Positions 3,001 through 47,260 of a stretch of 64,000 bases of DNA are shown one piece after another; position 1 is the first letter of the stretch, and every line of letters starts with the position of its first letter. The DNA lies in contig NZ_CP045504.1 of NCBI RefSeq assembly GCF_013376455.1, positions 3,927,001 to 3,991,000 on the forward strand, in the 5' to 3' direction. This DNA comes from Desulfolutivibrio sulfodismutans DSM 3696. GTDB taxonomy: Bacteria; Desulfobacterota; Desulfovibrionia; Desulfovibrionales; Desulfovibrionaceae. Under the pieces are notes generated by a model that was given only the letters and a program-made list of their open reading frames with translations, did not search any database and was not told where the DNA came from. The position numbers and the translations under genes were made by a program.

Positions 3001-3179
3001 CCGTGTCCGGAACCTCCTATACCCTGGCCGACATCGAGGCCCTGGCGCGCACAGGCATCTGGTACTGGCGGGTGCGCGCCCTGGACGCGGCCGGGAACCA
3101 GGGGGCATGGGTTACGGGCTCGTTCGAATACAAGGCTGCGGCGGCCGGGGGGATGATCCTGCTGTTGTTTCAGGAATAA
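1..3179 (+). CDS. NHL-repeat / Ig-like repeat surface protein (5' end cut by window)
   Basis: Probably an extracytoplasmic structural or adhesive protein. The reading frame is open from the window edge and the first codons already lie inside an NHL repeat, so the N-terminus and any signal peptide are missing. The first ~230 residues are five near-identical NHL (beta-propeller) repeats of about 47 residues, each with a VDASGNVYVAD core followed by NRIQKFSS. From residue ~235 to ~950 run about eight Ig-like (bacterial Big/Y_Y_Y style) modules, each ending in AAGNWQ and TWTVDTT-like strings. A last fibronectin-like module follows, and the protein ends in a short hydrophobic tail, AAAAGGMILLLFQE. 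A second NHL protein at 35.8-37.6 kb ends with a similar tail. The ligand is unknown. The TTG near base 3 should not be taken as the real start. Confidence 0.8.
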   Translation, partial: LNKWGSYGSADGQFKDPYGIAVDASGNVYVADTYNHRIQIFSSSGAFIATWGSYGSADGQYAYPRGITVDTSGNVYVADTSNNRIQKFSSDGVFQSKWGVGGTADGQFIQPFGIAVDASGNVYVADRDNNRIQKFSSSGVFQAKWGSFGSTDGQFFYPFGITVDASGNVYVADTSNHRIQKFSSSGVFQAKWGSNGSANGQFSSPVGIAFDASGNVYVAESANNRIQKGTPAALAATLESPPPAATNQTSYSLSVDDTVVTQYRYRLNGGAWSAITPVATPLALTLAEGSHTLELVGGDTWGNWQATDSPTTYTWTIDTTAPGDGEGQITGQPGESTNATGTDITIGGAGITQYRYSLDGGQTWSGPYGVGTHLTLAGLGEGQHVLWIQVQDAAGNWQTTYTPIVWTVDTTPPVIHVTAAPPTPTNQTALTVNLVSGEDSTHYRYDLDGSGYGSSTPVGTAINLSNLTDGSHTLSIIGQDAAGNWQATASATTLAFVVDTQSPLATVGQTPDDPTSATAIDIIVGGEGVVAYRYRLDSGEYGAETPVATHVVESGLSDGTHHVFVIGRDTAGNWQSESGPTTVSWTVDTLSPIATVTGVPSSPTNNDAATLTVAGDGVTHYKYSLDSGETYSAQTPVATPIVLENLPDGGHSVWVLGRDEAGNWQPESISTKVSWVVDTDSPQVMLGNVPSDPTNQTSAVVSISGEGVVAYQYLFDSGGYGAFLTVAEHPSISLEFATQGAHSLSVKGRDAAGNVQETPTTATWTVDLQSPVAVLTGAPEGTVATRDVSVTVGGEGVTQYKFRFDAEAWSAEAVPVATPITRTGLAEGSHTLEVVGRDAAGNWQAESSAATASWTIDVTAPTAELTGVPVGEVNTTAAVVTVGGQGVTQYRYRLDAGAWSAARPVAQQILLSDLAEGAHTLYVVVADALGNWQSTDAATSASWTVDLTAPGDPVIPPGQNPGTQTTRRPTLRWTAVAGATQYLIEVSDSADFSSPLVHRTVSGTSYTLADIEALARTGIWYWRVRALDAAGNQGAWVTGSFEYKAAAAGGMILLLFQE
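40..690 (+). repeat. Tandem 141-bp NHL-coding repeats
   Basis: About five in-frame copies of a 141-bp (47-codon) unit are nearly identical at DNA level around the core gacgcctccggaaacgtcta. Copies recur near 68, 210, 351, 492 and 633. The strong nucleotide identity suggests recent expansion or gene conversion. It encodes the NHL propeller of the first protein. Confidence 0.8.
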
Positions 3180-3345
3180 CGGTGGTGCAGCCTTTGACCT
3201 TTGAAACGGAGGTGCGGCCCTTCACCAACCGGTGCATGCTGTAGGATGCCGTGCGCTGGATGGGGCTGACGTATGCGGCCATGGGGCGTGTCGCCGGGAT
3301 CACCGGCCTTGCCGTGGGGAATATGGCCGCCTTCCTGTTTCCCGA

Positions 3346-4440
3346 TCAGCCCCCCCCGTCTTCAGGGGACCCCTCCCGGTAGACCTCCACCCGGTTGCGG
3401 CCCAGGGATTTGGCCCGATACATGGCCATGTCCGCATGTTTGGACAGGTCCATGGCGGCATCCCCGTGCTCCGGGAAGACCGCGACGCCGACGCTGCATG
3501 AGATCTGGCGGCGGCCGCCCGGCAGGTCGAAGGGCCGTTCGATCTCCCGGCGAATCTCCTCGGCCACCTGCGCGGCGTCCGTGGCCGAGCGCACCGGCGC
3601 AAGCAGGATCACGAATTCGTCCCCGCCGATGCGGCCGACCGTGTCCGCCTCCCGCAACCGCTGGCGCATGCGCCGGGCCGTCTCCTTGAGCAGCAGATCC
3701 CCCTCGGCATGGCCGAAGGTGTCGTTGACGGGCTTGAAATCGTCCAGATCCAGAAAGAGCAGGGCCACCCGGGTGGCGGCGCGTCTGGCCAGGAGCAGGG
3801 CCTGTTCCAGGCGGTCGGCAAAAAGCGCCCGGTTGGGCAGGCCGGTCAGGGTGTCGTGCTGGGCCATGAAGTGGATGCGCTCCTGGTCCTTCTTGCGCTC
3901 GGTGATGTCGAAGGCCGTGCCGATGCTGGCCGGATGTCCCTGGAAGGTGATGCTGCCCGCCGACATGTCCACCCAGCGCGTCTCGCCGTTTTTGGTCAAA
4001 AGCTTGACCTCGTAGCGGTCGGGAACGTCCTCGCCGCGCTGTCTGGCCAGGGCGCGGTTCATGACCGCCACCCGATGGTCGGGGTGGACGATGTCCATCT
4101 GGGTCATGGCCAGGATTTCGTCCCGGGAATAGCCGGTGATGGCGGTCATGGCCGGATTGGCCATGAGAAACCGGCCGTCCCGGTAGACGAAGATGGCGGC
4201 GGCGGCCATTTCGGCCAGGGTCCGGAACTGTTCCTCGCTCTCGGCCAGGGCGGCCTTGGCCCGGGCGGCCTCGGCCAGGGTGCGCTCCAGGCGGCGGCGG
4301 GTGCGCAGGAGATGGCCCACGGCCACACCGAGCAAGACCACGGCGGCCAGAACCAGATAGGGGGACAGGGCCGTCAGCAGGCCCGGAAGATCGAGGCGGG
4401 GAAGAGGGGAGAGGTCGCTCGCCAGATCGCGATCAAGCAT
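3346..4440 (-). CDS. Membrane-anchored PAS-GGDEF diguanylate cyclase
   Basis: Predicted to make cyclic di-GMP from two GTP in response to a signal sensed by its PAS domain. The 364-residue protein has one N-terminal membrane segment (about residues 22-45), a short coiled linker, a PAS/PAC domain (about 65-185, ending in the usual DITERKK) and a GGDEF domain (about 190-355). The active-site motif GGDEF is intact at 272-276. An inhibitory I-site RxxD (R263-D266) sits exactly five residues before it, so product inhibition is expected. There is no EAL domain. It is transcribed alone and diverges from dapA. No strong ribosome binding site precedes the ATG. Confidence 0.92.
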   Translation of the reverse strand: MLDRDLASDLSPLPRLDLPGLLTALSPYLVLAAVVLLGVAVGHLLRTRRRLERTLAEAARAKAALAESEEQFRTLAEMAAAAIFVYRDGRFLMANPAMTAITGYSRDEILAMTQMDIVHPDHRVAVMNRALARQRGEDVPDRYEVKLLTKNGETRWVDMSAGSITFQGHPASIGTAFDITERKKDQERIHFMAQHDTLTGLPNRALFADRLEQALLLARRAATRVALLFLDLDDFKPVNDTFGHAEGDLLLKETARRMRQRLREADTVGRIGGDEFVILLAPVRSATDAAQVAEEIRREIERPFDLPGGRRQISCSVGVAVFPEHGDAAMDLSKHADMAMYRAKSLGRNRVEVYREGSPEDGGG

Positions 4441-4630
4441 GTCGGGGTTCCGTTTGGAGGGTCAGGGGGGCGGGCGGCGGGGAAGGAGGCTCATTCTCCC
4501 TGCGATCACAACCAGTGACCACCCCATAGCCCATGATCCTTATTTGCAAAAGAGGGAAATGCCGCTGCCGCGCGCCTTGCCGTTTTCCGGGAAACGGGCT
4601 AGAAAATGGGACGGACCCACTTTTTTCGGC

Positions 4631-4638
4631 AAGGAGGA
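4631..4638 (+). promoter_or_regulatory. dapA ribosome binding site
   Basis: AAGGAGGA lies 5 bases before ATG 4644. It decides the start against upstream in-frame codons that would add 37 unrelated residues. Confidence 0.85.
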
Positions 4639-4643
4639 CAGTC

Positions 4644-5522
4644 ATGGAGTTTCGGGGAGCCTTTACCGCCTTGGTGACGCCTTTTTCCGGCGGCGAAGTC
4701 GATGAGGACCGCTACCGCGCCCTTATCGAATGGCAGATCGAGCAAGGAATTCACGGACTTGTACCTTGCGGAACCACGGGCGAGTCCGCCACCCTGTCCC
4801 ATGCCGAGCATAAACGGGTCATCCGCATCTGTGTCGAGCAGGTCAAAGGCCGCATCCCGGTTCTGGCCGGGGCTGGCTCCAACAACACCCGGGAGGCCGT
4901 GGACCTGACCCGGGAGGCCAAGGATGCCGGGGCCGACGGCGCGCTGCTCATCACCCCCTATTACAACAAGCCCACCCAGCACGGGCTGGTGGAGCATTTC
5001 GCGGCCATCGCCGCCGAGGTGGCGTTGCCCTTTGTGGTCTACAACGTTCCCAGCCGGACCTCGGTCAACGTGCTGCCCGAGACCCTGGTGAAGATTAAAA
5101 AGCGCGTGCCCCAGGTGGTCGGCGTCAAGGAGGCCACGGGCAACCTGACCCAGATCTCGGACATCATCGAATACTGCGGCCCGGATTTCGCCGTGCTCTC
5201 GGGAGATGACTTCACGGTCCTGCCCACCCTGGCCGTGGGCGGCATGGGGGTCATTTCCGTGGTCTCCAACATCGTGCCCGGGATGATGGCCGGGATGTGC
5301 AACGCCTTTTTCGCAGGCGACCTGCCCAAGGCCAGGGAGCTGCATTATCGTATGGCCCCCCTGTGCCGGGGCATGTTCCTGGAGACCAACCCCGTCCCGG
5401 CCAAGACGGCCCTGGGCTGGATGGGCAGGCTGGGCTTTGAGACGCGGCTGCCCATGGTGGAGATGCTTCCGGCTAACCAGGACAAGCTGCGGGCCATCCT
5501 GGCCGCCGCCGGGCTCGTCTAG
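4644..5522 (+). CDS. dapA: 4-hydroxy-tetrahydrodipicolinate synthase
   Basis: Condenses pyruvate with aspartate semialdehyde, the first committed step of lysine and diaminopimelate synthesis, in the cytoplasm. The 292-residue protein has the usual family length. Key residues are visible: T44-T45 in GTTGES, Y106/Y107 in PYYNKP, Y133 in VVYNVPSRT with R138, and the Schiff-base lysine K162 in GVKEATGN. The start is ATG 4644, chosen because of the strong AAGGAGGA site. A clear intrinsic terminator follows, so it appears to be a single-gene unit. Confidence 0.97.
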   Translation: MEFRGAFTALVTPFSGGEVDEDRYRALIEWQIEQGIHGLVPCGTTGESATLSHAEHKRVIRICVEQVKGRIPVLAGAGSNNTREAVDLTREAKDAGADGALLITPYYNKPTQHGLVEHFAAIAAEVALPFVVYNVPSRTSVNVLPETLVKIKKRVPQVVGVKEATGNLTQISDIIEYCGPDFAVLSGDDFTVLPTLAVGGMGVISVVSNIVPGMMAGMCNAFFAGDLPKARELHYRMAPLCRGMFLETNPVPAKTALGWMGRLGFETRLPMVEMLPANQDKLRAILAAAGLV

Positions 5523-5549
5523 GCGGCGCGGCCGAACACGACACCCCAG

Positions 5550-5578
5550 GGGGATCCTCTTCGGGGGATCCCCTTTTT
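5550..5578 (+). terminator. Intrinsic terminator after dapA
   Basis: GGGGATC (5550-5556) pairs with GATCCCC (5567-5573) around a 10-base loop and is followed by TTTTT. Confidence 0.8.
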
Positions 5579-5586
5579 CATGCGCC

Positions 5587-7155
5587 ATGCTCACACCAAA
5601 AAAATCATTTCCGGATTTATCCCCCGACCTAGCCGCCGCGCCTCTGGCGACCCTCGACCGGGCCAGCGTCAGCCTCGGCGGCCGCCGCATCCTCGACGCC
5701 GTGTCCTTTCGCCTGTTTCCCGGGCAGGCCTGGGCCGTTCTCGGCCGAAACGGCGCGGGCAAGACCACCTTTTTGCGGCTGGTGCGCGGCGACATCCCCC
5801 CGGACCAGGACGGCGCGGGCCGCCGCCGCTATGTGGCCGACGGCCGCGATCAATCCACCGCGCTTGGCCTGCGCCAACGCTTCGGATCGGTCAGCCGCCC
5901 GGACTGGGACTTCTGGCGCGGGCACGAGGGGACGGTCACGGTTTTCGACGCCGTGTGCGCCGGATTTTTCGACTCCCGCCTGCTGCACCAGCCGCCGACG
6001 CCGCACGAACGCCTCCGGGCCAGGGAGGTGATCGGACAGGTGGGGCTGGCGGGACTGGAAGAGGCCCCCATGGCCGCCCTGTCCGAGGGGCGGCTTCGGG
6101 CGGCGCTGGTGGCCCGGGCCCTGGCCCCGTGGCCCCTGCTGCTGATCCTGGACGAGGTTTTGGACGGCCTGGACGCGGACAACCGGGCCCGGGTGCTGGG
6201 TGCCATGGCCGTGGCCGCCGCCTCGGGGACGGCCCTTTTGGCCACGGCCCACCGGCCCGAGGATGTTCCGCCCGGCGTGACCAGGGCCGTGGTTCTTGAG
6301 CAGGGGCGCATTGTGGCCTGCGGCCTGCTGTCGGACATGCCCTTTTCCGGGACGGCGGATGACGGGTCGCAGGCCGAGGCCGCGTCCGCCGCGTCCGCCG
6401 CGTCTGCCGGGCCAGCTGGGCCAGCCCGGGCCGATGCGGCACCGCCGCTTTTCGAGATCGAAAACGCCGACGTTTTTCTGGCCGGGAGGCGGGTGCTCAC
6501 GGGACTGACCTGGCGGGTCATGCCCGGGGAGGGCTGGGCCGTACTCGGCCCAAACGGCGCGGGAAAGACCACGCTTTTGCGCCTGATCCTGGGCGAGATC
6601 CATCCGGCCGAAGGGGGCGCCATCCGCCGTCCGGGACTGGTGGAGCTGGCGGGGACCGACCTGCGCGACATCAAGGCCCGGGTGGGGTTCGTGTCCGCCG
6701 ACCTGGAATCGGCCTATCCGCCGCACACGACGGTCTGTGACGTGGCGGCCAGCGGCTTTTTCGCCGGGGTGGGGCTTTTTTTCACGCCGTCCCAGGCCCA
6801 GGCGCAGGCCGTCCGGACCACCCTGGCCGGGTTCGGCCTGGCCGATCTGGCCGCGCGCCCCCTGGCCAGCCTGTCCACGGGGCAGCGGCGGCTGGCGTTT
6901 CTGGCCCGGGCCGTGGTCCACTCCCCGCAGCTTTTAATCCTGGACGAGCCGTTTTCCAGCCTGGACGCCGCCGCCCGGGACACGGCCGCCTGCGCCGTGC
7001 AGGGGATCATGGCCCGGGGCGCGGCCGTGATCCTGGTCACCCACCGGGCGCGGGACATCCTGCCCGGCATCGGCCGGGTGCTGCGCCTGGAGCGGGGACG
7101 GGCCAGCATCGCGGCCGCGCCGAGGGTCGAAGCACAGGGATCGAACAGGCTATAG
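5587..7155 (+). CDS. Double ABC ATPase, ModF-like
   Basis: A soluble protein of 522 residues with two ABC nucleotide-binding domains in one chain, the arrangement of ModF/PhrA-type ATPases. Domain 1 has Walker A GRNGAGKTT, a weak signature (LSEGRLRAA) and Walker B LLLILDEVLDGLD. Domain 2 has GPNGAGKTT, signature LSTGQRRLA and LLILDEPFSSLD. The linker (about residues 260-285) is a low-complexity Ala/Ser/Gly stretch made of 9-base tandem repeats. No membrane segments and no permease are nearby, so a molybdate role rests only on domain architecture. The start ATG 5587 lies shortly after the dapA terminator; an ATG seven bases upstream is in another frame. Confidence 0.8.
   Translation: MLTPKKSFPDLSPDLAAAPLATLDRASVSLGGRRILDAVSFRLFPGQAWAVLGRNGAGKTTFLRLVRGDIPPDQDGAGRRRYVADGRDQSTALGLRQRFGSVSRPDWDFWRGHEGTVTVFDAVCAGFFDSRLLHQPPTPHERLRAREVIGQVGLAGLEEAPMAALSEGRLRAALVARALAPWPLLLILDEVLDGLDADNRARVLGAMAVAAASGTALLATAHRPEDVPPGVTRAVVLEQGRIVACGLLSDMPFSGTADDGSQAEAASAASAASAGPAGPARADAAPPLFEIENADVFLAGRRVLTGLTWRVMPGEGWAVLGPNGAGKTTLLRLILGEIHPAEGGAIRRPGLVELAGTDLRDIKARVGFVSADLESAYPPHTTVCDVAASGFFAGVGLFFTPSQAQAQAVRTTLAGFGLADLAARPLASLSTGQRRLAFLARAVVHSPQLLILDEPFSSLDAAARDTAACAVQGIMARGAAVILVTHRARDILPGIGRVLRLERGRASIAAAPRVEAQGSNRL
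6379..6426 (+). repeat. 9-bp tandem repeats in ABC linker
   Basis: Successive gcgtccgcc-like 9-mers, then gggccagct-like 9-mers, encode an Ala/Ser then Gly/Pro/Ala linker between the two ABC domains. Being multiples of three, they can vary in number without breaking the frame. Confidence 0.6.
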
Positions 7156-7177
7156 ATGGGTAGAGGCAGAATGGAAT

Positions 7178-7766
7178 TTAGCCGGGAGAACCATTTTCCA
7201 GGCTTTTTAGGTCAAAGTACATGGGGATATAGGTTGAGGTTCGCGGTCTGCACGGCAAAATCCCAAATCCGTTCTTCTCATAGAAAGGTCTGACGTCAAC
7301 CTTGTTTTTCTTGTCGCGCCGCGCATCGACGGTGACGAACCGGCACCCTGTCCTGTTGCTCGTGATAAAGAGCAGTTTTATCATGTACAAAAAAAAGGCT
7401 GCCGAGCTTATTCCCCTGAAGATCGATCCGGATGCCGAACCGTCCGATCTTGACGGCCGGATAGGAACGGTAAGGATATTCGCTGCAAACGCCAGGGAGG
7501 TTGCCGTCGCTTTCCACAACGATGGCATCGTTTTGCAACGTGGCGAACCCAAGCGGCTCGCTGTCAGGAATGTTATCTGCGGCTGTCTGAAGCTTGTACC
7601 TGATGGCGATTTTGTCGCGGAAATGGCGAGCCGCATCGTGGCGGATGAACTCTTCAAGGTCGCGATCCGTGTCGGTATCCGCAAGACAGGAAAACCCCGT
7701 GAAGATCGAAAAATTTTGAACCGGGCTTATCCTGAAATCGCCGAACGCAAGATTATTCCGCTGCAC
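7178..7766 (-). pseudogene. GNAT-family acetyltransferase toxin, frameshifted
   Basis: Two overlapping reverse-strand frames together make one GNAT protein of about 180 residues. The upstream frame carries the N-terminal half, with DLEEFIRHDA, LGFATLQNDAIVV and the acetyl-CoA region YPAVKIGRFGIRIDLQGNKLGS. The downstream frame carries IKLLFITSNRTGCRFVTVDA, PFYEKNGFG and MYFDLK. The frames meet at a run of eight T on the coding strand (bases 7389-7396). One T too many explains the break. The pattern fits GNAT toxins of toxin-antitoxin pairs, which acetylate aminoacyl-tRNA. The start is taken as GTG 7766, overlapping the end of the small upstream gene. It could be a true pseudogene, a sequencing error or a slippage site. 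Confidence 0.75.
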
Positions 7767-7914
7767 GACGCTTTGCGGCGGCCTGTACGGCGTCGTGCAT
7801 TTTTGCGGTGTCGAAGACGGGCGGGGTGTAGGGTTTCGGGTTTTGCGCGCCTTTTATGAAGGTGGCGGCATCCTTCCTCTTCAACACCGGCGTCGCTTCA
7901 ATGGGTCTTGCCAT
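7753..7914 (-). CDS. Small antitoxin-like protein
   Basis: A 53-residue ORF starting MARPIEATPVLKRKDAATFI and ending KRRAAE lies directly upstream of the broken GNAT gene and overlaps its GTG start by 14 bases. Small proteins beginning MARPI..TP.L.GKDA next to GNAT toxins are, as I recall, common antitoxin-like partners. That recollection needs a database check. It has no recognisable DNA-binding fold and is not DUF1778. The gene order, antitoxin then toxin with overlap, is typical of toxin-antitoxin pairs. Confidence 0.6.
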   Translation of the reverse strand: MARPIEATPVLKRKDAATFIKGAQNPKPYTPPVFDTAKMHDAVQAAAKRRAAE

Positions 7915-8188
7915 GACGCCGCCTCCAATCGGGTTATGTGGTATCAGAAGGCGTAAGAATGACCGCCCTCAGGCTGTTAGCTAAACAGCACTTCCGGCAG
8001 CGTCAAGGGGAAAAGCGTGAGGACATAAGCTTTCCCGCCCATGGGGCCGCTCACCCGCCGCCCCCGGCCGGGTGCGTTTTTTGCTTTTCGCCCGGGCCAA
8101 AGCCGGATATGCACACCACAAAAAACGGGAACCGGAGACGGCAGGGCGGTTGTCGCGCCCCGGCGTCCCACGTCCCGCGGCGCATTCC

Positions 8189-8611
8189 ATGAAGATCCTG
8201 GGCATCGATTTCGGGCTGGCCCGCGTGGGACTGGCCGTCACCGACCCGGACGGGCGTCTGGCCTTTCCGCGCGGGGTCGTCGTGCGCACCACCCGTGCGG
8301 CTTTGTTTGAGGCGCTTTCGGCCGTCATGGCGGCCGAGGGCGTGGAGCAGATCGTCATCGGCAGGCCCGAGCCCATGGATGGCGTGCCCGGCCGGGAGGC
8401 CGAGACCGTGCGCCAGATCGAAAACTTCGCCAAAAGTCTGGCCCGGCGCACCCCCCTGCCCATCGCCTTTGTGGACGAGACCCTGTCCTCGGCTCAGGCC
8501 CAAGAGGACTTGCGCGCCGCCGGACTTTCGGGCAGGCGCCTGCGGGAGGCCCTGGACGCCCAGGCGGCGGTTCGCATCGTCAACACGTATCTGGCGGCCC
8601 ATCGGCCGTGA
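8189..8611 (+). CDS. ruvX: Putative pre-16S rRNA nuclease / Holliday junction resolvase-like protein
   Basis: RuvX/YqgF family, RNase H-like fold, linked to 5' maturation of 16S rRNA in E. coli. The 140-residue length is typical. The first strand MKILGIDFGLARVGLAVTD contains the catalytic Asp in GIDFG. IVIGRPEPMDG and FVDETLSSAQAQ supply the later motifs (FVDERL-like), and a DAQAAVRIV segment follows near the end. The start is ATG 8189. It is followed after 11 bases by mltG, the same ruvX-mltG proximity seen in several lineages. Confidence 0.93.
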   Translation: MKILGIDFGLARVGLAVTDPDGRLAFPRGVVVRTTRAALFEALSAVMAAEGVEQIVIGRPEPMDGVPGREAETVRQIENFAKSLARRTPLPIAFVDETLSSAQAQEDLRAAGLSGRRLREALDAQAAVRIVNTYLAAHRP

Positions 8612-11438: not shown

Positions 11439-12098
11439 CTATTTCCCGCATTTGTGCTTGTAGTTCTCGCCTTCCTTGATGAAGATGATGCTCTCGGCGA
11501 TGTTGGCCGACTGGTCGCAGATGCGTTTCAGGCTATGGGCGATGAAGGAATACTGCACGGCCCGCTCCACGGTGCGCGACTCGCGGATCATGTAGTCCGT
11601 GGTGTCCTTGAAGATGCGCACGTTTAAGTTCATGGCGTCGATGTTGCGGTCGAAAATTTCCTTGGCCAACTCGGCGTCGAGCTCCATGAACGACGTGATG
11701 GTCTTGCGCACCAGGTCGAGCGCCATCTCGGACAACTGGCGCAGGGCCGGGTTGATCTCCATGCGCTGGCGTTCGTGCAGGATGAGCACCCGCTCGGCGA
11801 TGTTGGCTCCCTCGTCGCCCAGGCGCTCAATGTTGACGATCATGCGCATGCAGCCCACGATGAAGCGCAGATCCTTGGCCACGGGCTGGTGCAGGGCCAG
11901 GATGCGCAGGCTCTCGGAGTCGATGAGGCATTCCAGGGCGTTGATGTGGCGGTCGTCGTCGATGACCTGCCGGGCCAGGTCGGCGTTGTTGTCGAAAACG
12001 GCCTGGGTGGCCTTGTGCACGGCTTCGGAGGCCATGTGCAGCATCTTTAAGATGTTGACCCGCAGGGTCGTCAGCTCTTGTTGCAGCGCGGTTTCCAC
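11439..12098 (-). CDS. phoU: Phosphate signalling complex protein PhoU
   Basis: A 219-residue all-helical protein that links phosphate uptake to PhoR/PhoB signalling. The two PhoU repeats are visible, each with its metal-binding helix: MRMIVNIERLGDEGANIAERV and SLKRICDQSANIAESIIFI. AAGGAGA precedes the ATG. It lies 30 bases after serB on the same strand and ends in a strong terminator. No pst transporter or phoB/phoR genes are in the window. Confidence 0.95.
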   Translation of the reverse strand: METALQQELTTLRVNILKMLHMASEAVHKATQAVFDNNADLARQVIDDDRHINALECLIDSESLRILALHQPVAKDLRFIVGCMRMIVNIERLGDEGANIAERVLILHERQRMEINPALRQLSEMALDLVRKTITSFMELDAELAKEIFDRNIDAMNLNVRIFKDTTDYMIRESRTVERAVQYSFIAHSLKRICDQSANIAESIIFIKEGENYKHKCGK

Positions 12099-12128
12099 GA
12101 GATTCTCCTTGCGGTTTGGGCCTTTCGT

Positions 12129-13343
12129 TTACGTGACGGTGTCCCGGTCGCGCATGCCGATGAGATAGAGGATGCTGTCCAGTCCCAGGGTGGAGATGGC
12201 CTGCTTCGCCCCCTGCTTGACCACGGGCTTGGCGTGGAAGGCGATGCCCAGGCCGGCCAGGTTGAGCATGGGCAGGTCGTTGGCCCCGTCGCCCACGGCG
12301 ATGACCTGTTGCAGGCTTAACCCTTCGCGGGCCGCGATGTCTTTTAAAATTTCCGCCTTCTTGGCGGCGTCCACGATATCGCCTACCACGTTTCCGGTGA
12401 GACGGCCGTTTTCGATCTCAAGTTCGTTGGCGAAAAGGAAATCGATGCCCAGGCGGTCCTGCAGGCGGCGGCCGAAATAGGTGAAGCCGCCGGAGATGAT
12501 GGCGATCTTGTAGCCGAAGCGCTTGAGGTTGTTGATAAGCCGTTCGGCCCCCTCGGTCATGGGGATGCGCTCGGCCACGGCCGAAAGGGTGTCGGCGGGC
12601 AGGCCGCGCAAAAGCGCCAGCCGTTTGCGCAGGCTTTGCTTGAAATCGATCTCCCCGCGCATGGCCGACTCGGTGATGGCAACCACCTCGCGGCCCACCC
12701 CGGCCTCCTTGGCCAGTTCGTCGATGACCTCGGCGGCGATCAGGGTGGAGTCCATGTCGAAGGCCACCAGGCGGCGGTTGCGGCGGAAGGCCCCGTCCTC
12801 CTGGAAGGCGATATCCACGCCGAGTTCGGCGGCGATGGCCAGGAACTGGCCTTTGATGCGGGCCGGGTCGGCCAGGGCGCCGCGTACGGAAAACTCCACG
12901 CAGGCCTGGCGCAGGGGGGCTTCGTCGTTTAAGGAGGCGCGGCCCGAAAGCCGGGTGATGACGTCGATGTTCAAGTCGTTTTCAGCGATGACCCGGCTTA
13001 TGCTCGCCACCTGTTCGGCGGTGATGGTCCGGGCCAGAAGGGTCACGATATGCCGGTCCTTGCCCTGGGCGTCGACCCATTTGTCGTACCGCTGCGGAGG
13101 GATGGGCGTGAACGTCAGGTTGACGCCGAGTTCGTGGGCGGTGAAAAGAAGGTCTTTGATGATGGGCGCGGATTCGGATTCCCGGGGAATGCGGATGAGG
13201 ATGCCAAGCGACAGGGTGTCGTGGATGACGGCCTGTCCGATATCCAGGATGTCCACCCGGGTCTGGGCCAGTTGGCCGGTGAGGGTGGCGGTGAGTCCGG
13301 GCTTGTCGTCGCCGGTGATGCGGATCAGGATGATCTGCTGCAT
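12129..13343 (-). CDS. serB: Phosphoserine phosphatase with N-terminal ACT domains
   Basis: Last step of serine synthesis, hydrolysis of phosphoserine. The 404-residue protein starts with two ACT-like regulatory domains (about 1-80 and 95-180), then the HAD phosphatase. Its nucleophile motif is FDMDSTLIAAE (D196, D198), with motif II IISGGFTYF and motif IV VGDGANDLPML. The long form with tandem ACT domains occurs in several bacterial groups and suggests amino-acid feedback. It is followed at 30 bases by phoU. Confidence 0.95.
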   Translation of the reverse strand: MQQIILIRITGDDKPGLTATLTGQLAQTRVDILDIGQAVIHDTLSLGILIRIPRESESAPIIKDLLFTAHELGVNLTFTPIPPQRYDKWVDAQGKDRHIVTLLARTITAEQVASISRVIAENDLNIDVITRLSGRASLNDEAPLRQACVEFSVRGALADPARIKGQFLAIAAELGVDIAFQEDGAFRRNRRLVAFDMDSTLIAAEVIDELAKEAGVGREVVAITESAMRGEIDFKQSLRKRLALLRGLPADTLSAVAERIPMTEGAERLINNLKRFGYKIAIISGGFTYFGRRLQDRLGIDFLFANELEIENGRLTGNVVGDIVDAAKKAEILKDIAAREGLSLQQVIAVGDGANDLPMLNLAGLGIAFHAKPVVKQGAKQAISTLGLDSILYLIGMRDRDTVT

Positions 13344-41683: not shown

Positions 41684-43024
41684 ATGATCGTCAAACTGAC
41701 CCTGGATAACTTCCTGGCCCACGGCGCAAGCGTCTTCGAATTCGCCCCGGGCCTAAACGTCCTCACCGGTCCCAACAACACCGGAAAATCCGCCGTGGTC
41801 GAGGCCCTGCGCTGCCTGGCCGAAAACCCCATCCCCAAGCACGTCATCCGCCATGGGGCCAAGGAGGCCCGGGTGACCGTGGAGCTTTCCGACGGAACCC
41901 GCGTAGCCTGGGTCAGAAAGCCGAAATACGCCGTCTACGAGCTTACCCCGCCCGGGGCCTCCGAGCCCCAGACCTACGCCAAGTTCAACCGCACCCCGCC
42001 CGAGGACGTCCTGGCCGCCCTGCGACTGAACCTCGTCCCCGTGGAAGGATCGGACGACATCGACGTGCATCTGGGCAACCAGCGCGAACCCGTGTTTCTG
42101 CTCGGCAAGCCCGGGTCGGTCATGGCCTCGTTTTTCGCCGCGTCCTCGGAAAGCGCCCACCTGATCGCCATGCAGAACCTGCTCACGGACAAGGTGCGCA
42201 AGGCCAAAAACGAGAAGCGCCGCCTGGAGGCCGCCGCCGACGCCGCCCGCCGCGACCTGGACCGCCTGTCCCGCCTGCCGGACCTGGAATGCGCCCTGGA
42301 GGTCGGACGCGACACGGAAGACCGGCTTGCCGTCCTGGCCCGGGACATCCCGGCCCTTCAAACCGTCCTTTCGCGCCGCGAAAGTCTCAAACGCCGTCTG
42401 GCCGCCCTGGCCGCCAGGACGGCCGCCCTGCAAACGCTTGCGCCAGCCCCGCAGCCCTTTGCCGTGGCCCCGTTGGCCCGCGTCGTCGAGAGGCAGACGG
42501 CGTTTCTCCGGTCGCGGGAACAGGCCGCCTCCCGCATCACGGCCCTGGCCGCCCTGGCCGCGCCGCCGACCCTGGCCGCCACCGCCGCCATGGACCGTCT
42601 GGCCGCCGACATGGCCCACGTCCGGGCCGCCCACCGCCGCATGTCCCGAAAATCCGCCGCCCTGGCCGTCCTGGCCCCGGCCCCCGAGGTCTTTCCCGTG
42701 GCCGCCCTGGCCGATCACCTGGCCGCACGCCGGGCCCTGGCCGCCAAAATGACGCGTCTGGAAAAGTCGCTTGCCCGGCGCGAACACCTTTCGCCGCCCC
42801 CGGAGGCCCAAAGCGCCGCGCCCCTGGCCGCCCTGGTGCGGGACATGCGCGCCCTGCGCCAGCGCCGGGATGCCGCCGCCGACGTCCTGGCCGGACGCGA
42901 CGCGCGTCTGGCCAGCCTGCATACGGATATCGAGGCCCGCCTGGGGCAGGTGGGCGTGTGCCCCTTGTGCGGCGGCGATCTGCGTCCCGAAACCTTTCTC
43001 GACGCCCCCCGGCGCGCCACTTAG
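41684..43024 (+). CDS. N-terminal half of a split Rad50/SbcC-like ATPase
   Basis: 446 residues from ATG 41684. It begins with the SMC/Rad50 N-lobe: LTLDNFLAHGASVFEF, then Walker A TGPNNTGKSAVVEAL (G29-S36). From about residue 155 to 420 it is Ala/Arg/Leu-rich and helical, as in a coiled-coil arm. It ends only 17 residues after CPLC (C426, C429), the zinc-hook motif that in Rad50 sits at the middle of the arm. No signature or Walker B is present. Those motifs are found in a separate protein at 46.6-47.3 kb in the same run of genes. An Mre11-like gene follows after 16 bases. Confidence 0.85.
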   Translation: MIVKLTLDNFLAHGASVFEFAPGLNVLTGPNNTGKSAVVEALRCLAENPIPKHVIRHGAKEARVTVELSDGTRVAWVRKPKYAVYELTPPGASEPQTYAKFNRTPPEDVLAALRLNLVPVEGSDDIDVHLGNQREPVFLLGKPGSVMASFFAASSESAHLIAMQNLLTDKVRKAKNEKRRLEAAADAARRDLDRLSRLPDLECALEVGRDTEDRLAVLARDIPALQTVLSRRESLKRRLAALAARTAALQTLAPAPQPFAVAPLARVVERQTAFLRSREQAASRITALAALAAPPTLAATAAMDRLAADMAHVRAAHRRMSRKSAALAVLAPAPEVFPVAALADHLAARRALAAKMTRLEKSLARREHLSPPPEAQSAAPLAALVRDMRALRQRRDAAADVLAGRDARLASLHTDIEARLGQVGVCPLCGGDLRPETFLDAPRRAT

Positions 43025-43040
43025 GCCCCAAGGATCGCTC

Positions 43041-43994
43041 ATGGAACTGCCGCGCCGCACCACCTGCGGGGTGCTCGTCATCCCCGACCCCCATGTGGCC
43101 GCCACCCCTCCCGGGCACCGCCTGGAGGGCTATACCGATCAGGTCATGGACAAGCTGGCCTATTGCCTGGACTACGCCGCCGCCCATGACCTCATCCCCC
43201 TTTTCCTCGGCGATCTCTTCCACTGGCCGCGCGAGAATCCCAACACCCTGCTGGTGCGCCTGATCGACCTTTTCCGGCCGCATGCGCCCTATACCCTGGT
43301 GGGCAACCACGACAAATACCAGGCCCGGTTCACCTCCGACACCTCCCTGGCCGTGCTCGCCGCCGCAGGCGTGGTGCGGCTTTTGGACGAACCCGGTCCC
43401 TTTTTGCGCATCGACACGCCCACCGGGCAGGCCATCCTGGGCGCGTCCCCCGACGCCACCCCCATCCCCCTGTCCTTCGACCATGCCGACGGCCTGGAAA
43501 CCGCGTGGTTCACCCACCACAACATCAGTTTTCCCGAATTCAAGGACCGCTTCCAGCACATCCGCGAGATCCCCGGGGTCACCTGGCTGATAAACGGCCA
43601 CATCCACCGGCCCCAGCCCTCGGTCACGTCCGGTTGCACCACCTGGGTCAACCCCGGCAACATCACCCGGCTTTCCTTCACCCCCCGCTCCCGCGACCGC
43701 ATCCCGGCCGCCGCCATCTGGCGGCCCGGCTGCACCGAACTGGAAAAAGTCCCCCTGCCGTGCCTGCCCTTCAACGAGGTCTTTCCCGACGCCGATTTTC
43801 CGCCGGAAGAAAACAACATCCCCCAGACCGAATCCCGGTTCCTCCTGGGGCTCGAACGCCTGGCCATGCGCCGCACCGCCGAGGGCGCGGGACTCAAAAC
43901 CTTCCTCCAGGCCAACCTGAATCCCGAAAATCCCGAGACCAGCCTCATCTGGGAACTCTACCGCGAGGTCACCCATGCCGAAAACGCCGAATAG
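43041..43994 (+). CDS. Mre11/SbcD-like metallophosphoesterase
   Basis: 317 residues from ATG 43041 (AAGGAT upstream). All calcineurin-like metal motifs are visible: VIPDPH (D16, H18), FLGDLFHWP (D58), LVGNHDKY (N89-H90-D91), AWFTHHN and INGHIHRPQ. The last ~90 residues are an extension, predicted to contact the ATPase partner. It overlaps the next gene by 20 bases. Position directly after the hook-bearing ATPase half suggests a nuclease partner as in Mre11-Rad50. Confidence 0.9.
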   Translation: MELPRRTTCGVLVIPDPHVAATPPGHRLEGYTDQVMDKLAYCLDYAAAHDLIPLFLGDLFHWPRENPNTLLVRLIDLFRPHAPYTLVGNHDKYQARFTSDTSLAVLAAAGVVRLLDEPGPFLRIDTPTGQAILGASPDATPIPLSFDHADGLETAWFTHHNISFPEFKDRFQHIREIPGVTWLINGHIHRPQPSVTSGCTTWVNPGNITRLSFTPRSRDRIPAAAIWRPGCTELEKVPLPCLPFNEVFPDADFPPEENNIPQTESRFLLGLERLAMRRTAEGAGLKTFLQANLNPENPETSLIWELYREVTHAENAE

Positions 43995-44286
43995 CCCCTT
44001 CGACGACCAGGGGTTGGAAAAGGAACTGGCCAGCCTCAAGGCCGACTACGTCAAATTACGTGATGAAAAGGTCCGGGCCGAGCAAGACCTGGCCAACCTC
44101 ACCGCGCAACTCGCGGAACTGGAAACAAAGGCCCTGGCCGAGTACGGCACCGCCGACCCGGACGAACTGGCCCGGCTGCTCGAATCCAAACGGCAGGAAA
44201 ATGCTGCCCTGGTCGCCGATTACCGCAACCATATCCAGGCCGTGCGCCAGGAACTTGACGCCATCGACAGGGATTTCGGAGAATAG
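43975..44286 (+). CDS. Small coiled-coil protein of the split-Rad50 operon
   Basis: 103 residues, almost entirely charged heptads (LEKELASLKADYVKLRDEK, AEQDLANLTAQLAELETKAL, RQENAALVADYRNHIQAVRQ). No enzyme motif. It overlaps the phosphoesterase gene, so it is translationally coupled. It may supply part of the coiled-coil arm that both ATPase halves lack, or tether the ribonuclease. Function unknown. Confidence 0.75.
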   Translation: MPKTPNSPFDDQGLEKELASLKADYVKLRDEKVRAEQDLANLTAQLAELETKALAEYGTADPDELARLLESKRQENAALVADYRNHIQAVRQELDAIDRDFGE

Positions 44287-44290
44287 GAGG

Positions 44291-44316
44291 CGGGGAGGGG
44301 GCGTCGCCCCCTCCCG
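44291..44316 (+). repeat. GC-rich hairpin element, copy 1
   Basis: GGGAGGGGGC and GCCCCCTCCC pair around a 3-base loop just after the coiled-coil gene. The same element recurs at 46419. There is no T-run, so it is unlikely to be a full terminator. Confidence 0.7.
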
Positions 44317-44353
44317 AGGTCTTCTCACATCAGAGCATCGTAAAGGATGATTC

Positions 44354-46417
44354 ATGCAACAGTTTCCCGGCTCGGGGTGTATCGTCGAATTCATGCACGG
44401 CAACGAGCCGCAGTTGGCCTGGGTACTGGAGGAGACGGGCGGTCGGCTGCGCCTGTACACGATCAACAAGCGTGAGATGAAGCTGCCTGCGGCCCGGGTG
44501 TTGCCGTGGGTGGGGCCGTGCGATGCGTCGGTACGCGAGCGTGGCGGAATGTTGGAGCGGCTCTCCGCCTGCGAGACAAGGCGGGCCAAGGCGGCCTCGG
44601 AAGTGGACGCCATGGAGATATGGGAGCTGGCCCAGGGCGAGGTAAGCGAGGAGACGGTGGGCTGGTTTGCCGGGCTTGTGTGGGAGTCGCCGGGCTTTGA
44701 CCAGGTGGCGGGCCTGGGGCGGGCCCTTTTGGCCTGCAAGACGCATTTCAAATTTCATCCGCCGAAATTCGAGGTCTATCCGGCCGAGGTGGTGGAGCGG
44801 CGGCTCGTGGAGCAGGCGGCGGCGCTTGAACGGGAGCGGGTGGTCACGGCCGGGCAGGGGTTTTTCAAGGACTTGTGGACGGCCTGGGCCTCGGGAACGG
44901 GCCGGGACTCGGCCAGACTGGCGGCCCGGCTCGACCCCGAGGCGGCGGACAAGCTGCGCGAGCTTCTGCTTGGGCTGGTGGCCGATCCGGAGAATGCCGA
45001 TCTGGCGGTGCTGTGGGGGACGCTGCGCAAGGGCCTGCCCGAGCATCCCTTTTTGCCCCTGGTTTTGGCCGAGCAGTGGGGAGTGGTGCCGCCGCACTAT
45101 AATTATCTCCTGGATCAGGCCGGATATGAGGCCGGCGACGGCTGGTCCGGGCGTTTTGATGGCGAGATCGAGGCCATGCGCCAGGCCTGTGCGGACACGA
45201 TCCGCGACCCCGAGCCCATCCCCTTCGTCAGTGTGGATTCGCCCACGACCCGGGACATCGACGACGCCTTTCATGTCGAGCCCCTGCCGGACGACGGATT
45301 TTTGCTGCGCCTGGCCTTGGCCGATCCGGCCTCGGGGTGGCGTTTCGACGGCCCCCTGGACCGGGCCGTGGCCCGCCGGGCCAGCAGCATCTATCTGCCC
45401 GAGGGCACAAGCCACATGATGCCCGAAGCCTTTGCCTCCGATCTGTATTCGCTTGTGGAGGCGTCGCCGCGTCCGGCCCTGATCATGGAATGGAACCTGG
45501 ATGCGGCGGGCGCGCCCCGGGATTTTTCCATGCGTTCTTCCGTGGCGGCGGTTTCCAACCGGACCTACGCCGATGTGGAGGCGGAACTGGCCACGGGCGC
45601 GCCGGGCCAAAGCGTGGCCTTGGCTGCACGCCTGTCCGGTCTGTTGCGCGGTCGCCGGGTGGCCGCCGGGGCGGCCATCATCGAGCGCAGCGAACCCGAT
45701 GTGGTCCTGGTCGGGCCGCCCGACGACCCGCAGGTGGAGCTTGCGCCTTCGGATGCCTATCCCAACGCCCAGCTTTTGGTCAGCGAACTCATGATTCTGG
45801 CCAATTCCTCGGCCGCCGCCTTTGCCGCCGTGCAGGGGTTTCCGCTTTTGTTCCGCACCCAGGACGCCGTGTTGCCCAAGGAGTTGGCCGGGGTCTGGAG
45901 TCGCCCCGAGGACATCCACCACGTGGTCAAGCACCTGCCGCCCACCAGCCTGGAACTCGCCCCCCGGCCCCACGCGGCCATCGGGGCCAAGGCCTACGCC
46001 ACGGTGACCTCGCCGCTTCGCCGCTATGTGGATCTGGTCAACCTGGCCCAGTTGCGCCAGTTTCTGGCCGCCGGAAGGCCCAAATGGTCCCGGGCCGAAC
46101 TGGAGCAACGCCTGCCGGACATCTGCGCCCAGACCGAGGCGGCCGGGCGCATCCAGCGTTTTCGGCCCCGCTATTGGAAGCTGTTGCACATCCGGCAGCA
46201 GTGTCGGGTCAGGACGTGGACCGGCGTCGTCGTGGAGGCCGCCGGGGCCTTCGTCACCCTGGCGCTTCCGGATTTCCAGATCTACGTGCGCGCCAACCGC
46301 GAACAACTTGGCGAAAAAATTCGTCCCGGACAGCCCTTCGCCTTGCGCCTGGGCAAGGTGGACCCGCTGACCAACGAACTGCGGGTGCTGGAAGCCACGG
46401 AGATGGAAGCGGAATAG
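44354..46417 (+). CDS. RNB-domain (RNase II/R-like) exoribonuclease
   Basis: 687 residues. The RNB domain (about 285-590) has the catalytic string VDSPTTRDIDDAFH with D295, D301, D303 and D304 all present, and the later motif TVTSPLRRYVDLVN. A C-terminal OB/S1-like region follows (WTGVVVEAAGAFVTLALPDF..). The N-terminal ~280 residues lack typical cold-shock domains and resemble the long helical leader of cyanobacterial/plastid-type RNB proteins. It should degrade RNA 3' to 5'. Its place between the phosphoesterase and the second ATPase half is unusual and points to a shared complex. Confidence 0.88.
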   Translation: MQQFPGSGCIVEFMHGNEPQLAWVLEETGGRLRLYTINKREMKLPAARVLPWVGPCDASVRERGGMLERLSACETRRAKAASEVDAMEIWELAQGEVSEETVGWFAGLVWESPGFDQVAGLGRALLACKTHFKFHPPKFEVYPAEVVERRLVEQAAALERERVVTAGQGFFKDLWTAWASGTGRDSARLAARLDPEAADKLRELLLGLVADPENADLAVLWGTLRKGLPEHPFLPLVLAEQWGVVPPHYNYLLDQAGYEAGDGWSGRFDGEIEAMRQACADTIRDPEPIPFVSVDSPTTRDIDDAFHVEPLPDDGFLLRLALADPASGWRFDGPLDRAVARRASSIYLPEGTSHMMPEAFASDLYSLVEASPRPALIMEWNLDAAGAPRDFSMRSSVAAVSNRTYADVEAELATGAPGQSVALAARLSGLLRGRRVAAGAAIIERSEPDVVLVGPPDDPQVELAPSDAYPNAQLLVSELMILANSSAAAFAAVQGFPLLFRTQDAVLPKELAGVWSRPEDIHHVVKHLPPTSLELAPRPHAAIGAKAYATVTSPLRRYVDLVNLAQLRQFLAAGRPKWSRAELEQRLPDICAQTEAAGRIQRFRPRYWKLLHIRQQCRVRTWTGVVVEAAGAFVTLALPDFQIYVRANREQLGEKIRPGQPFALRLGKVDPLTNELRVLEATEMEAE

Positions 46418-46418
46418 C

Positions 46419-46443
46419 GGGGAGGGGGCGTCGCCCCCTCCCC
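46419..46443 (+). repeat. GC-rich hairpin element, copy 2
   Basis: GGGGAGGGGGC and GCCCCCTCCCC pair around a 3-base loop directly after the RNB stop. Same core as at 44291. A second hairpin (CGGGGGGAATGATTCCCCCC, near 46459-46480) follows. Together they resemble a dispersed intergenic repeat. Confidence 0.7.
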
Positions 46444-46579
46444 GCGCCCCACCCCTGCCCGGGGGGAATGATTCCCCCCGGTCCCCCCCGACGGGGGCGC
46501 GGGGCGAAGCCGCTAAAAGTTTTGGGAGGGGAGGGCGCCCCTCCCTGGCCGCCGGAGGCCATCTGGGAGGATGAGAACT

Positions 46580-47260
46580 ATGGACGCATTGAAGGAACTG
46601 CAGGATGAACGCCGGGGACTTGAGCGGCGGCTGGACCGGTTGTCGGGCGTGGCGGCGTCCCGGGCCCGGGAATTTTTGGAGGTCGGCGAGGCGCAACGCG
46701 GGGTGGAGGCGTTTTTGGAGCTGGCCCCGGGCGCGGCGTCACGGCTGGAGGTCTTGACGGGGGAGCTTTTCGGGGAGGTGATGGACGACATCGAGGTGAA
46801 CCTGACGCACGCCGTGCGCGAGATACTGGCCCAGGATCGGGAGGTGAAGGCCCGGCGGGAGGTGAAGGGGAACCGGTTGTCGATCCATTTCGAGATGATC
46901 AACCAGGGCGGCCCCGAGGACATCCTGTCCGGGCAGGGGGGCTCGGTGTGCAACATCATGTCCGTGGGACTCCGGCTTCTGGCCTTGTCACAGCTTGACC
47001 CAGGGCGGCACCGGCCGTTTCTGGTCTTGGACGAGCAGGACTGCTGGCTGCGGCCGGACCTGATCCCCCGTTTCGCCAAGCTGATCCGCAAGATCGGCGA
47101 CCGGCTGGGGTTTCAGGTGCTTTACATCAGCCACCACCCGGTGGACCATTTCATGGGCGAGGCGGCCAAGGTGTTTTTGTTGCGCCAAAGCCGCGAGACA
47201 GGGGTGGCGGTGGATGTGTTGTTGGATCGGACGGCGGATGCGGCCGGGCGAGAGGTATAG
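46580..47260 (+). CDS. C-terminal half of a split Rad50/SbcC-like ATPase
   Basis: 226 residues from ATG 46580, chosen because GGAGG lies nine bases upstream; the in-frame ATG at 46571 abuts that site. It begins with a coiled segment (LKELQDERRGLERRLDRLSG). It then shows the ABC signature region ILSGQGGSVCNIMSVGLRLLAL (S117-S122), Walker B RPFLVLDEQDCWL (D151-E152) and a switch histidine in VLYISHHPVDHF. There is no Walker A. These are the pieces missing from the 446-residue protein at 41.7 kb, so the two are predicted to assemble one ATPase head. Confidence 0.82.
   Translation: MDALKELQDERRGLERRLDRLSGVAASRAREFLEVGEAQRGVEAFLELAPGAASRLEVLTGELFGEVMDDIEVNLTHAVREILAQDREVKARREVKGNRLSIHFEMINQGGPEDILSGQGGSVCNIMSVGLRLLALSQLDPGRHRPFLVLDEQDCWLRPDLIPRFAKLIRKIGDRLGFQVLYISHHPVDHFMGEAAKVFLLRQSRETGVAVDVLLDRTADAAGREV

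Follow-up and report, generated by a model that had tools for sequence, protein, structure and literature searches.

An apparent split Mre11-Rad50 system in Desulfovibrionia and other bacteria, with Rad50 encoded as two halves

Can a Rad50-type ATPase be built from two separately translated polypeptides that are cut at the zinc hook? In current models of Mre11-Rad50 a long antiparallel coiled coil joins the head to the hook and back, and relays the ATP state. The question is raised by a locus of Desulfolutivibrio sulfodismutans DSM 3696, which lies in a stretch of 64,000 nucleotides (contig NZ_CP045504.1, positions 3,927,001 to 3,991,000 of the forward strand) that is called the window here. 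A first-pass annotation had placed five open reading frames (ORFs) at 41684-47260 of the window, and all five were found there on the + strand (Table 1). It had read them as an ATPase of the Rad50/SbcC type, divided at its zinc hook, together with an Mre11-like nuclease and a coiled-coil protein, which was borne out by the motifs and by a conserved layout, and as a machine that couples end processing to 3'-5' RNA decay, which was not. Our data indicate that some bacteria and at least one phage encode what looks like an Mre11-Rad50 machine with Rad50 as two halves cut at the zinc hook. It is highly probable that four of the genes make up a conserved split Mre11-Rad50 (SbcCD-type) system, working as one complex in place of SbcCD. 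The evidence consists of gene anatomy, motifs, conservation, gene order, a swapped-order fusion, near-exclusion of SbcD and predicted lobe folds.

The N half (P0001) displays Walker A (TGPNNTGKS) at residue 28, a Q-loop (GNQREP) at 131 and the CPLC hook at 426, followed by 17 residues. The C half (P0005) displays the signature LSGQGGS at 119, Walker B (FLVLDE) at 150 and the switch His (ISHH) at 186, and a search of it for the Walker A pattern G....GK[ST] found none. Walker A, Q-loop, signature, Walker B and switch His are complete only when both chains are taken together, and the signature is atypical. The claimed LSGQGGS is present in the window; its LS part is not conserved across the 80 rows of the C-half alignment, while G121, G123, G124, S125, V126 and N128 are invariant and Q122 is found in at least 90% of rows. 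The signature is thus an atypical GQGGSVxN and not LSGGE.

Family searches say little about the C half: P0005 has no match below E 0.07 in Pfam and none below 0.1 in NCBIfam, and weak Pfam SMC_N matches were seen in 10 of 21 orthologues (best E 1e-3). Its AlphaFold2 (AF2) model (80 rows; predicted local distance difference test, pLDDT, 87.9; predicted template modelling score, pTM, 0.63) shows a long helix and then the C lobe, and the best VIA-align match of this model is the P. furiosus Rad50 chain 1f2u_B (Z 12.7, 2.9 Å over 142). The N half matches Pfam AAA_23 (E 1e-8). Its profile (57 rows) matches the Rad50 N-lobe chains 5f3w, 3qkr and 1ii8 and also the Rad50 zinc-hook structures 6zff (E 3.5e-6) and 1l8d (E 1e-4), and the N lobe of its AF2 model (57 rows; pLDDT 80.9, pTM 0.36) fits the Rad50 chain 1f2u_C (Z 11.8, 3.2 Å over 129). 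Because the motifs are complementary and the two models match the two kinds of chain in 1F2U, the N and C lobes can be regarded as one ATPase; since 1F2U holds the lobes as separate chains, separate lobes can form one. A single ATP site assembled in trans by the two halves is well supported as a prediction from motifs and models.

The split is not peculiar to the window. When 199 Desulfovibrionia genomes were searched at E<=1e-3, the C half was found in 78 (17 of 45 genera), and 77 were counted once a spurious-looking match (G114; 25% identity, E 6e-4) had been dropped. The main matches, the window's own aside, show 53-93% identity, mostly over ~200 residues, that of G183 covering residues 51-211. 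In 18 of 20 loci from different genomes of the class, the N half, phosphoesterase, coiled coil and C half follow each other in that order on one strand. A scan of named genomes gave 124 C-half relatives, and the best 80 of the 124 belong to Desulfobacterota (some labelled Deltaproteobacteria, Myxococcota or just Proteobacteria), Planctomycetota and, in two cases, Bacillota; identity of the C half over the 80 rows is 37-92% and its motifs are invariant. The C half has no less than 4 kb of upstream sequence in 57 named loci; 52 of these, from Desulfobacterota and Planctomycetota, show the same order on one strand, and a Bacillota locus under the 4-kb limit (L132) also has it in full. Among 67 loci with all four genes the junctions overlap or abut in 56 cases between N half and phosphoesterase, 60 between phosphoesterase and coiled coil and 41 between coiled coil and C half, the starts being set by script. 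The C half was found in 7 of 149 drawn Planctomycetota genomes. In the C-half tree, grouping by lineage exceeds that of shuffled labels, and seven Desulfobacterales rows sit among Planctomycetota (some branches are weak), so the cassette has probably moved between phyla.

It could be thought that a canonical SbcC/Rad50 gene was recently interrupted by insertion of the RNB gene and is now a pseudogene, as the window C half is parted from the other genes by an RNB gene with two flanking near-palindromes. However, 17 of the 18 loci with conserved order have no RNB gene and the halves are still separate there, with the nuclease and the coiled coil between them; the same layout occurs in Planctomycetota, and the C half is conserved with invariant motifs. 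Relatives do not show a simple broken fused gene, and the halves stay split in distant bacteria. The conserved split thus refutes the broken-gene reading, which is hardly credible. Co-conservation of all five genes had also been expected; it holds for the N half, phosphoesterase, coiled coil and C half and fails for RNB.

Large plasmids add another dimension. A collection of 72,556 plasmid records contains 21 with a match, and each of the 21 aligns with the fused query as one piece, in one frame and through both lobes, the C lobe first. Four of these proteins, from Bosea, Pseudomonas FeN3W, Alteromonas and Aeromonas, were read closely; they are 573-637 aa long and run from C lobe to N lobe to arm, with a CxxC near the C-terminus. 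The small gene 5' of the fusions matches the coiled-coil profile (E 5e-18, 4e-10 and 6e-9; weakly, 0.03, in Alteromonas) and the gene 3' matches the phosphoesterase profile (E 1.5e-49 to 5e-4). The plasmid order, coiled coil, fused C and N halves, phosphoesterase, is a rotation of the cellular one and may have come from a tandem copy that shed its outer genes. As the halves are fused in swapped order on plasmids, they can be argued to form one unit. Three large plasmids have phosphoesterase partners outside Pfam Metallophos (L139 9706-10602, L140 9548-10324, L141 9776-10549) next to fused ATPases that keep their motifs, and these partners are possibly a nuclease-dead structural form.

The fusions bear on another explanation, that the halves belong to different ATPases, the N half working with some other C-lobe protein and the C half with some other N-lobe protein. 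The C half lacks partners in the stretch at 5 of the 57 loci, and the window genome does have RecN and other SMC-like ATPases: four of its other AAA_23 matches were typed as one RecN, one weakly RecF-like, one like the defence ATPase MAD3 and one without family. However, the natural fusion of C to N half in every matching plasmid record, the same gene order in distant bacteria and in the phage Mvi-JY20, and the single C-half copy in the window genome make such separate partnerships very unlikely.

Phages carry the halves as well. Microcystis phage Mvi-JY20 has overlapping genes, annotated 'hypothetical', for an N half (332 aa; E 1e-23), a phosphoesterase (319 aa; E 1e-9) with GQHD instead of GNHD, a 94-aa protein that weakly matches the coiled-coil profile (E 0.002) and a C half (205 aa; E 9e-10). 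In the uncultured phage LR745208 the N half (2e-39), phosphoesterase (3e-20) and C half (1e-16) are in order with other DNA between them, and no coiled-coil gene was confirmed there. Bacillus phage vB_BboS-125 has an N half (2e-36, annotated exonuclease), an AP2-domain gene, a 78-aa protein and a C half (1e-12, annotated ATPase), with no phosphoesterase between N half and C half. Among viral proteins, the three that best match the C half in structure stand alone and are 193-219 aa long. In PHROGs, phrog_16465 ('exonuclease', 491 positions) matches the N half at E 7e-19 and phrog_15167 ('ATPase', 211 positions) the C half at E 2e-4; the two are kept there as separate families, unlinked in the descriptions seen, whereas here they are proposed to be halves of one ATPase. 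No relative turned up when IMG/VR was scanned with the C half and the fused protein; as annotated phages do have relatives, this is not evidence of viral absence. Stand-alone C-half-like ATPases also occur in phages Tunturi_5 (L143 5716-6381) and Magritte (L147 284-934), annotated ATPase and exonuclease, and no N half was located beside them in the stretches read. Gene 4 of Magritte, suggested as an N half by its name, was rejected, as it has no N-half profile match and looks like a clamp-loader ATPase.

The window genome (4.44 Mb, 2 contigs, completeness 100) gave no match to the SbcC (TIGR00618) and SbcD (TIGR00619) models at E 1e-3, with controls positive in 14/14 and 13/14. Across the class TIGR00618 is positive in 104 of 199 genomes, many of them weakly, and G007, a near relative of the window genome, is among them (E 1e-13); because this model discriminates poorly, SbcD was chosen for the exclusion count. 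With SbcD at E<=1e-6, the C half occurs without SbcD in 75 of the 199 genomes and SbcD without the C half in 110; 2 genomes have both and 12 have neither. One double carrier (G059) has SbcC in two ORFs with a transposase-like ORF, identified by eye, between them and an intact SbcD (L150, G059:C1:1172000-1178300); the other (G069) has just short fragments of SbcC and SbcD, the latter with a stop. In Desulfovibrionia the split form is found almost only in genomes without ordinary SbcCD. Of six cassette genomes outside the class, four have SbcD at best at E 8e-6 or not at all.

This near-exclusion also bears on the possibility of an anti-phage or anti-plasmid defence module akin to Lamassu or Wadjet instead of housekeeping repair. 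P0001 matches 50 PADLOC models at E 0.01, among them LmuB (E 8e-15, best over residues 14-71) and another LmuB model over 3-433 (E 5.5e-12), and the patchy distribution (as in Planctomycetota) would suit such a module. The likeness to Lamassu ends with LmuB, however, as neither the LmuA effector nor LmuC is matched by any of the five proteins. P0002-P0005 match no Lmu model at E 0.01, and their best PADLOC match has E 9e-6. Near-exclusion of SbcD points to a housekeeping role. A codon-usage script called 55 neighbouring ORFs around 15 loci, and among the 20 that were scanned, which come from 14 loci, there is no recurring partner or defence gene apart from the one named next. A defence role is thus improbable. 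An Exo_endo_phos protein lies upstream of the cassette in two related Desulfobacteraceae loci (L127 and L135).

A number of observations weigh against one complex that replaces SbcCD. The Fisher test on the exclusion gives 4e-39, a value that overstates independence because the genomes are related. With SbcD at the loose E<=1e-3, 10 genomes have both, 67 the C half alone, 112 SbcD alone and 10 neither. All these counts use the C half alone, the N half having been checked in part of those genomes, and they exclude G114. The two Bacillota cassette genomes also show an SbcD-like match (E ~1e-12). Gene order is broken in L040, where the C half is inverted and 5.4 kb off the other three genes (2028-8596); in the stretch of L058, and among the 57 named loci in those of L073, L101, L102, L107 and L128, only the C half was found. 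Pfam Metallophos is absent at E 0.01 from three of the four plasmid phosphoesterases tested, the Bosea one matching. The N-half profile scores SMC6 slightly above the Rad50 N lobes, and RecF and SMC heads fit the N lobe at Z 13.2 against 11.8 for Rad50; as Rad50, SMC and RecF tie in the Foldseek and VIA rows, fold alone cannot name the family. Finally, the arm of roughly 270 residues is longer than the sequence available for a return coil (~65 residues on the C half plus the 103-aa protein), so it cannot be canonical.

The phosphoesterase of the split system keeps the marks of its family. P0002 matches Pfam Metallophos (E 8e-6) and has DPH at 16, GDLF at 57, GNHD at 88, HH at 159 and GHIH at 186; GNHD and GHxH are kept in 67 of the 67 named loci with all four genes, and the family profile matches the Thermotoga SbcD/Mre11 structures 2q8u and 3qg5 (E 1.7e-4 to 3.4e-4). 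The first 20 bases of the coiled-coil gene are shared with the end of the phosphoesterase gene. The coiled-coil protein has a conserved loop, mostly EYGTxDP, flanked by two helical-looking stretches, and is a candidate for a piece of the missing return arm or for a cofactor. It weakly matches positions 635-727, just past the hook, of the phage SbcC profile phrog_77 (E 0.0085), which would fit a remnant of the return arm and is too weak to rely on.

The arm itself is unusual. The last CxxC lies 15-42 residues before the C-terminus in 65 of 67 N halves from loci with all four genes, and there is no CxxC in those of L123 and L131. The Planctomycetota N half of L131 (6308-8569), 754 aa long, has a long added C-terminal part and no CxxC hook. 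In the AF2 model the arm is not one continuous coil; it consists of helices 262-289, 301-328 and 340-367 with proline-bearing 11-residue loops between them. Across 75 N halves, which include near-duplicates and were counted with a loose pattern, the commonest spacing of the loops is 39 (83 cases), then 42 (27) and 36 (25), and the hook positions fall mostly in the groups 377-393, 408-434, 448-469 and 500-508, ~40 apart. As neighbouring steps in arm length differ by one module, a kinked linear arm is favoured over a zigzag. It is possible, if somewhat doubtful, that this is a Rad50 without return arm, with the hook at the free end of a one-way arm of ~39-residue modules (a 28-residue helix and a proline loop) whose length grows stepwise, and with a head that closes only when the separately translated C half docks. 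If so, Rad50 would be able to function without an unbroken antiparallel coiled coil and without lobes that are covalently linked.

From this evidence we infer how the four-gene complex could work, including its stoichiometry, its nuclease activity and substrate, the role of the coiled coil and the functional replacement of SbcCD. The N half would contribute Walker A and the Q-loop, and the C half the signature, Walker B and His switch. The two lobes would join as one ABC head, and two heads would dimerise around two ATPs. An Mre11-like dimer at the base could cut DNA ends or hairpins under the control of ATP. The N half would bear the arm that ends in the zinc hook, and the hooks of two arms could pair via zinc. 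As the canonical return strand is missing from the N-half chain, the C half would close the neck with its 85-residue helix, and the 103-aa coiled coil might help. In Desulfovibrionia the complex would stand in for SbcCD.

Where does this leave the exoribonuclease? P0004 has an RNB domain (Pfam E 7e-52) with VDSPTTRDIDD at 294 and all four catalytic Asp, as have RNase R and RNase II, and it scores under the equivalog cut-offs of both. In the window and in L039, a locus of the same genus, its gene is enclosed by the cassette and has the same orientation, and this is what would favour a five-part machine coupling DNA-end processing with 3'-5' RNA decay. However, an RNB homologue is present in 198 of the 199 class genomes at E<=1e-30, with or without a C half, and of 100 fetched loci only L039 has it next to the cassette. 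In the 27 genomes, taken from those entered from the two genome scans, that have both genes on one contig, RNB is within 3 kb of the C half only in two of the window's genus (G000 and G010), at 19 kb in G183 and at least 665 kb away in the other 24; in the third member of the genus, G007, the two are on different contigs. In L046 a CAAX-type protease (Pfam Rce1-like; 11695-12447) occupies the slot between coiled coil and C half; L047 and L053 have a similar sequence there, judged by eye, and most loci have little or nothing. The near-palindrome of Table 1 has four sites genome-wide (<=1 mismatch), two of which flank the RNB gene, and L039 has the pair too. Being near-universal, rarely beside the cassette and replaced in its slot elsewhere, the RNase looks like a lodger that is incidental to the split Rad50 system. 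RNB was ruled out as a fifth subunit by its rarity beside the cassette and its near-universal homologues, and coupling to RNA decay, as claimed at first, is very unlikely indeed.

Table 1. Features of the split Rad50 locus, in positions of the window
Feature	Position	Strand	Basis
Rad50 N half, 446 aa (Walker A, Q-loop, segmented helical arm, terminal CPLC hook)	41684..43024	+	ORF, motifs, profile, AF2
Mre11/SbcD-like calcineurin-type phosphoesterase, 317 aa, metal-binding motifs intact	43041..43994	+	Pfam, family profile
Coiled-coil protein, 103 aa, third cassette gene	43975..44286	+	Profile, sequence comparison
23-bp near-palindrome, copy 5' of RNB gene	44293..44315	no strand	Genome motif scan
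RNB-family exoribonuclease, 687 aa, between coiled coil and C half; judged outside the system	44354..46417	+	Pfam
23-bp near-palindrome, second copy, 3' of RNB gene	46420..46442	no strand	Genome motif scan
Rad50 C half, 229 aa (85-residue helix, C lobe, signature, Walker B, His switch; no Walker A)	46571..47260	+	AF2, motifs

In this natural and widely conserved version of Rad50 no return path is evident, and the version seems to take the place of SbcCD; it thus allows a direct test of the requirement for the coiled coil. For bacteria scored as without SbcCD it offers a probable complex for end processing, and it suggests that two phage protein families, kept separate so far, are halves of one ATPase. 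The split operon of cells and phages, set against the swapped fusion of large plasmids, suggests that evolution keeps the contacts between lobes rather than those between arms.

Among known systems, the crystal 1F2U/1F2T of the Rad50 catalytic domain also has the N and C lobes as separate chains, and each kind of chain is matched by one half here; its two-chain form is reportedly a laboratory construct, whereas the split described here is natural and conserved. No split or swapped-order Rad50 was found in the literature, in a search that mostly left subscription papers and preprints outside. The nearest is the opposite variant, the Mre11/Rad50 fusion proteins known from Mimivirus R555 and a Clostridium kluyveri plasmid (PMC3175470, in the available part of whose text the word 'split' is absent). 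As far as that part goes, those fusions resemble our system in that the same complex has an unusual gene arrangement and is found on plasmids and in viruses, but there the nuclease is joined to Rad50, and here Rad50 is split or fused in swapped order. With SbcCD/Mre11-Rad50 the split system has in common Walker A, Q-loop, signature, Walker B, His switch and CxxC hook, an Mre11-type phosphoesterase in the same operon, and lobe models that match P. furiosus Rad50 chains. It differs in having two polypeptides instead of one chain with a mid-chain hook (the plasmid fusions being one chain in swapped order), a hook at the C-terminus of an N half that has no return arm and whose arm is made of ~39-residue modules, the signature GQGGS, an added conserved coiled coil of 103 aa, and the order N half, phosphoesterase, coiled coil, C half. 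What is new here is thus the architecture, that is, halves joined in trans, a hook at a free end and a modular arm without an evident return strand.

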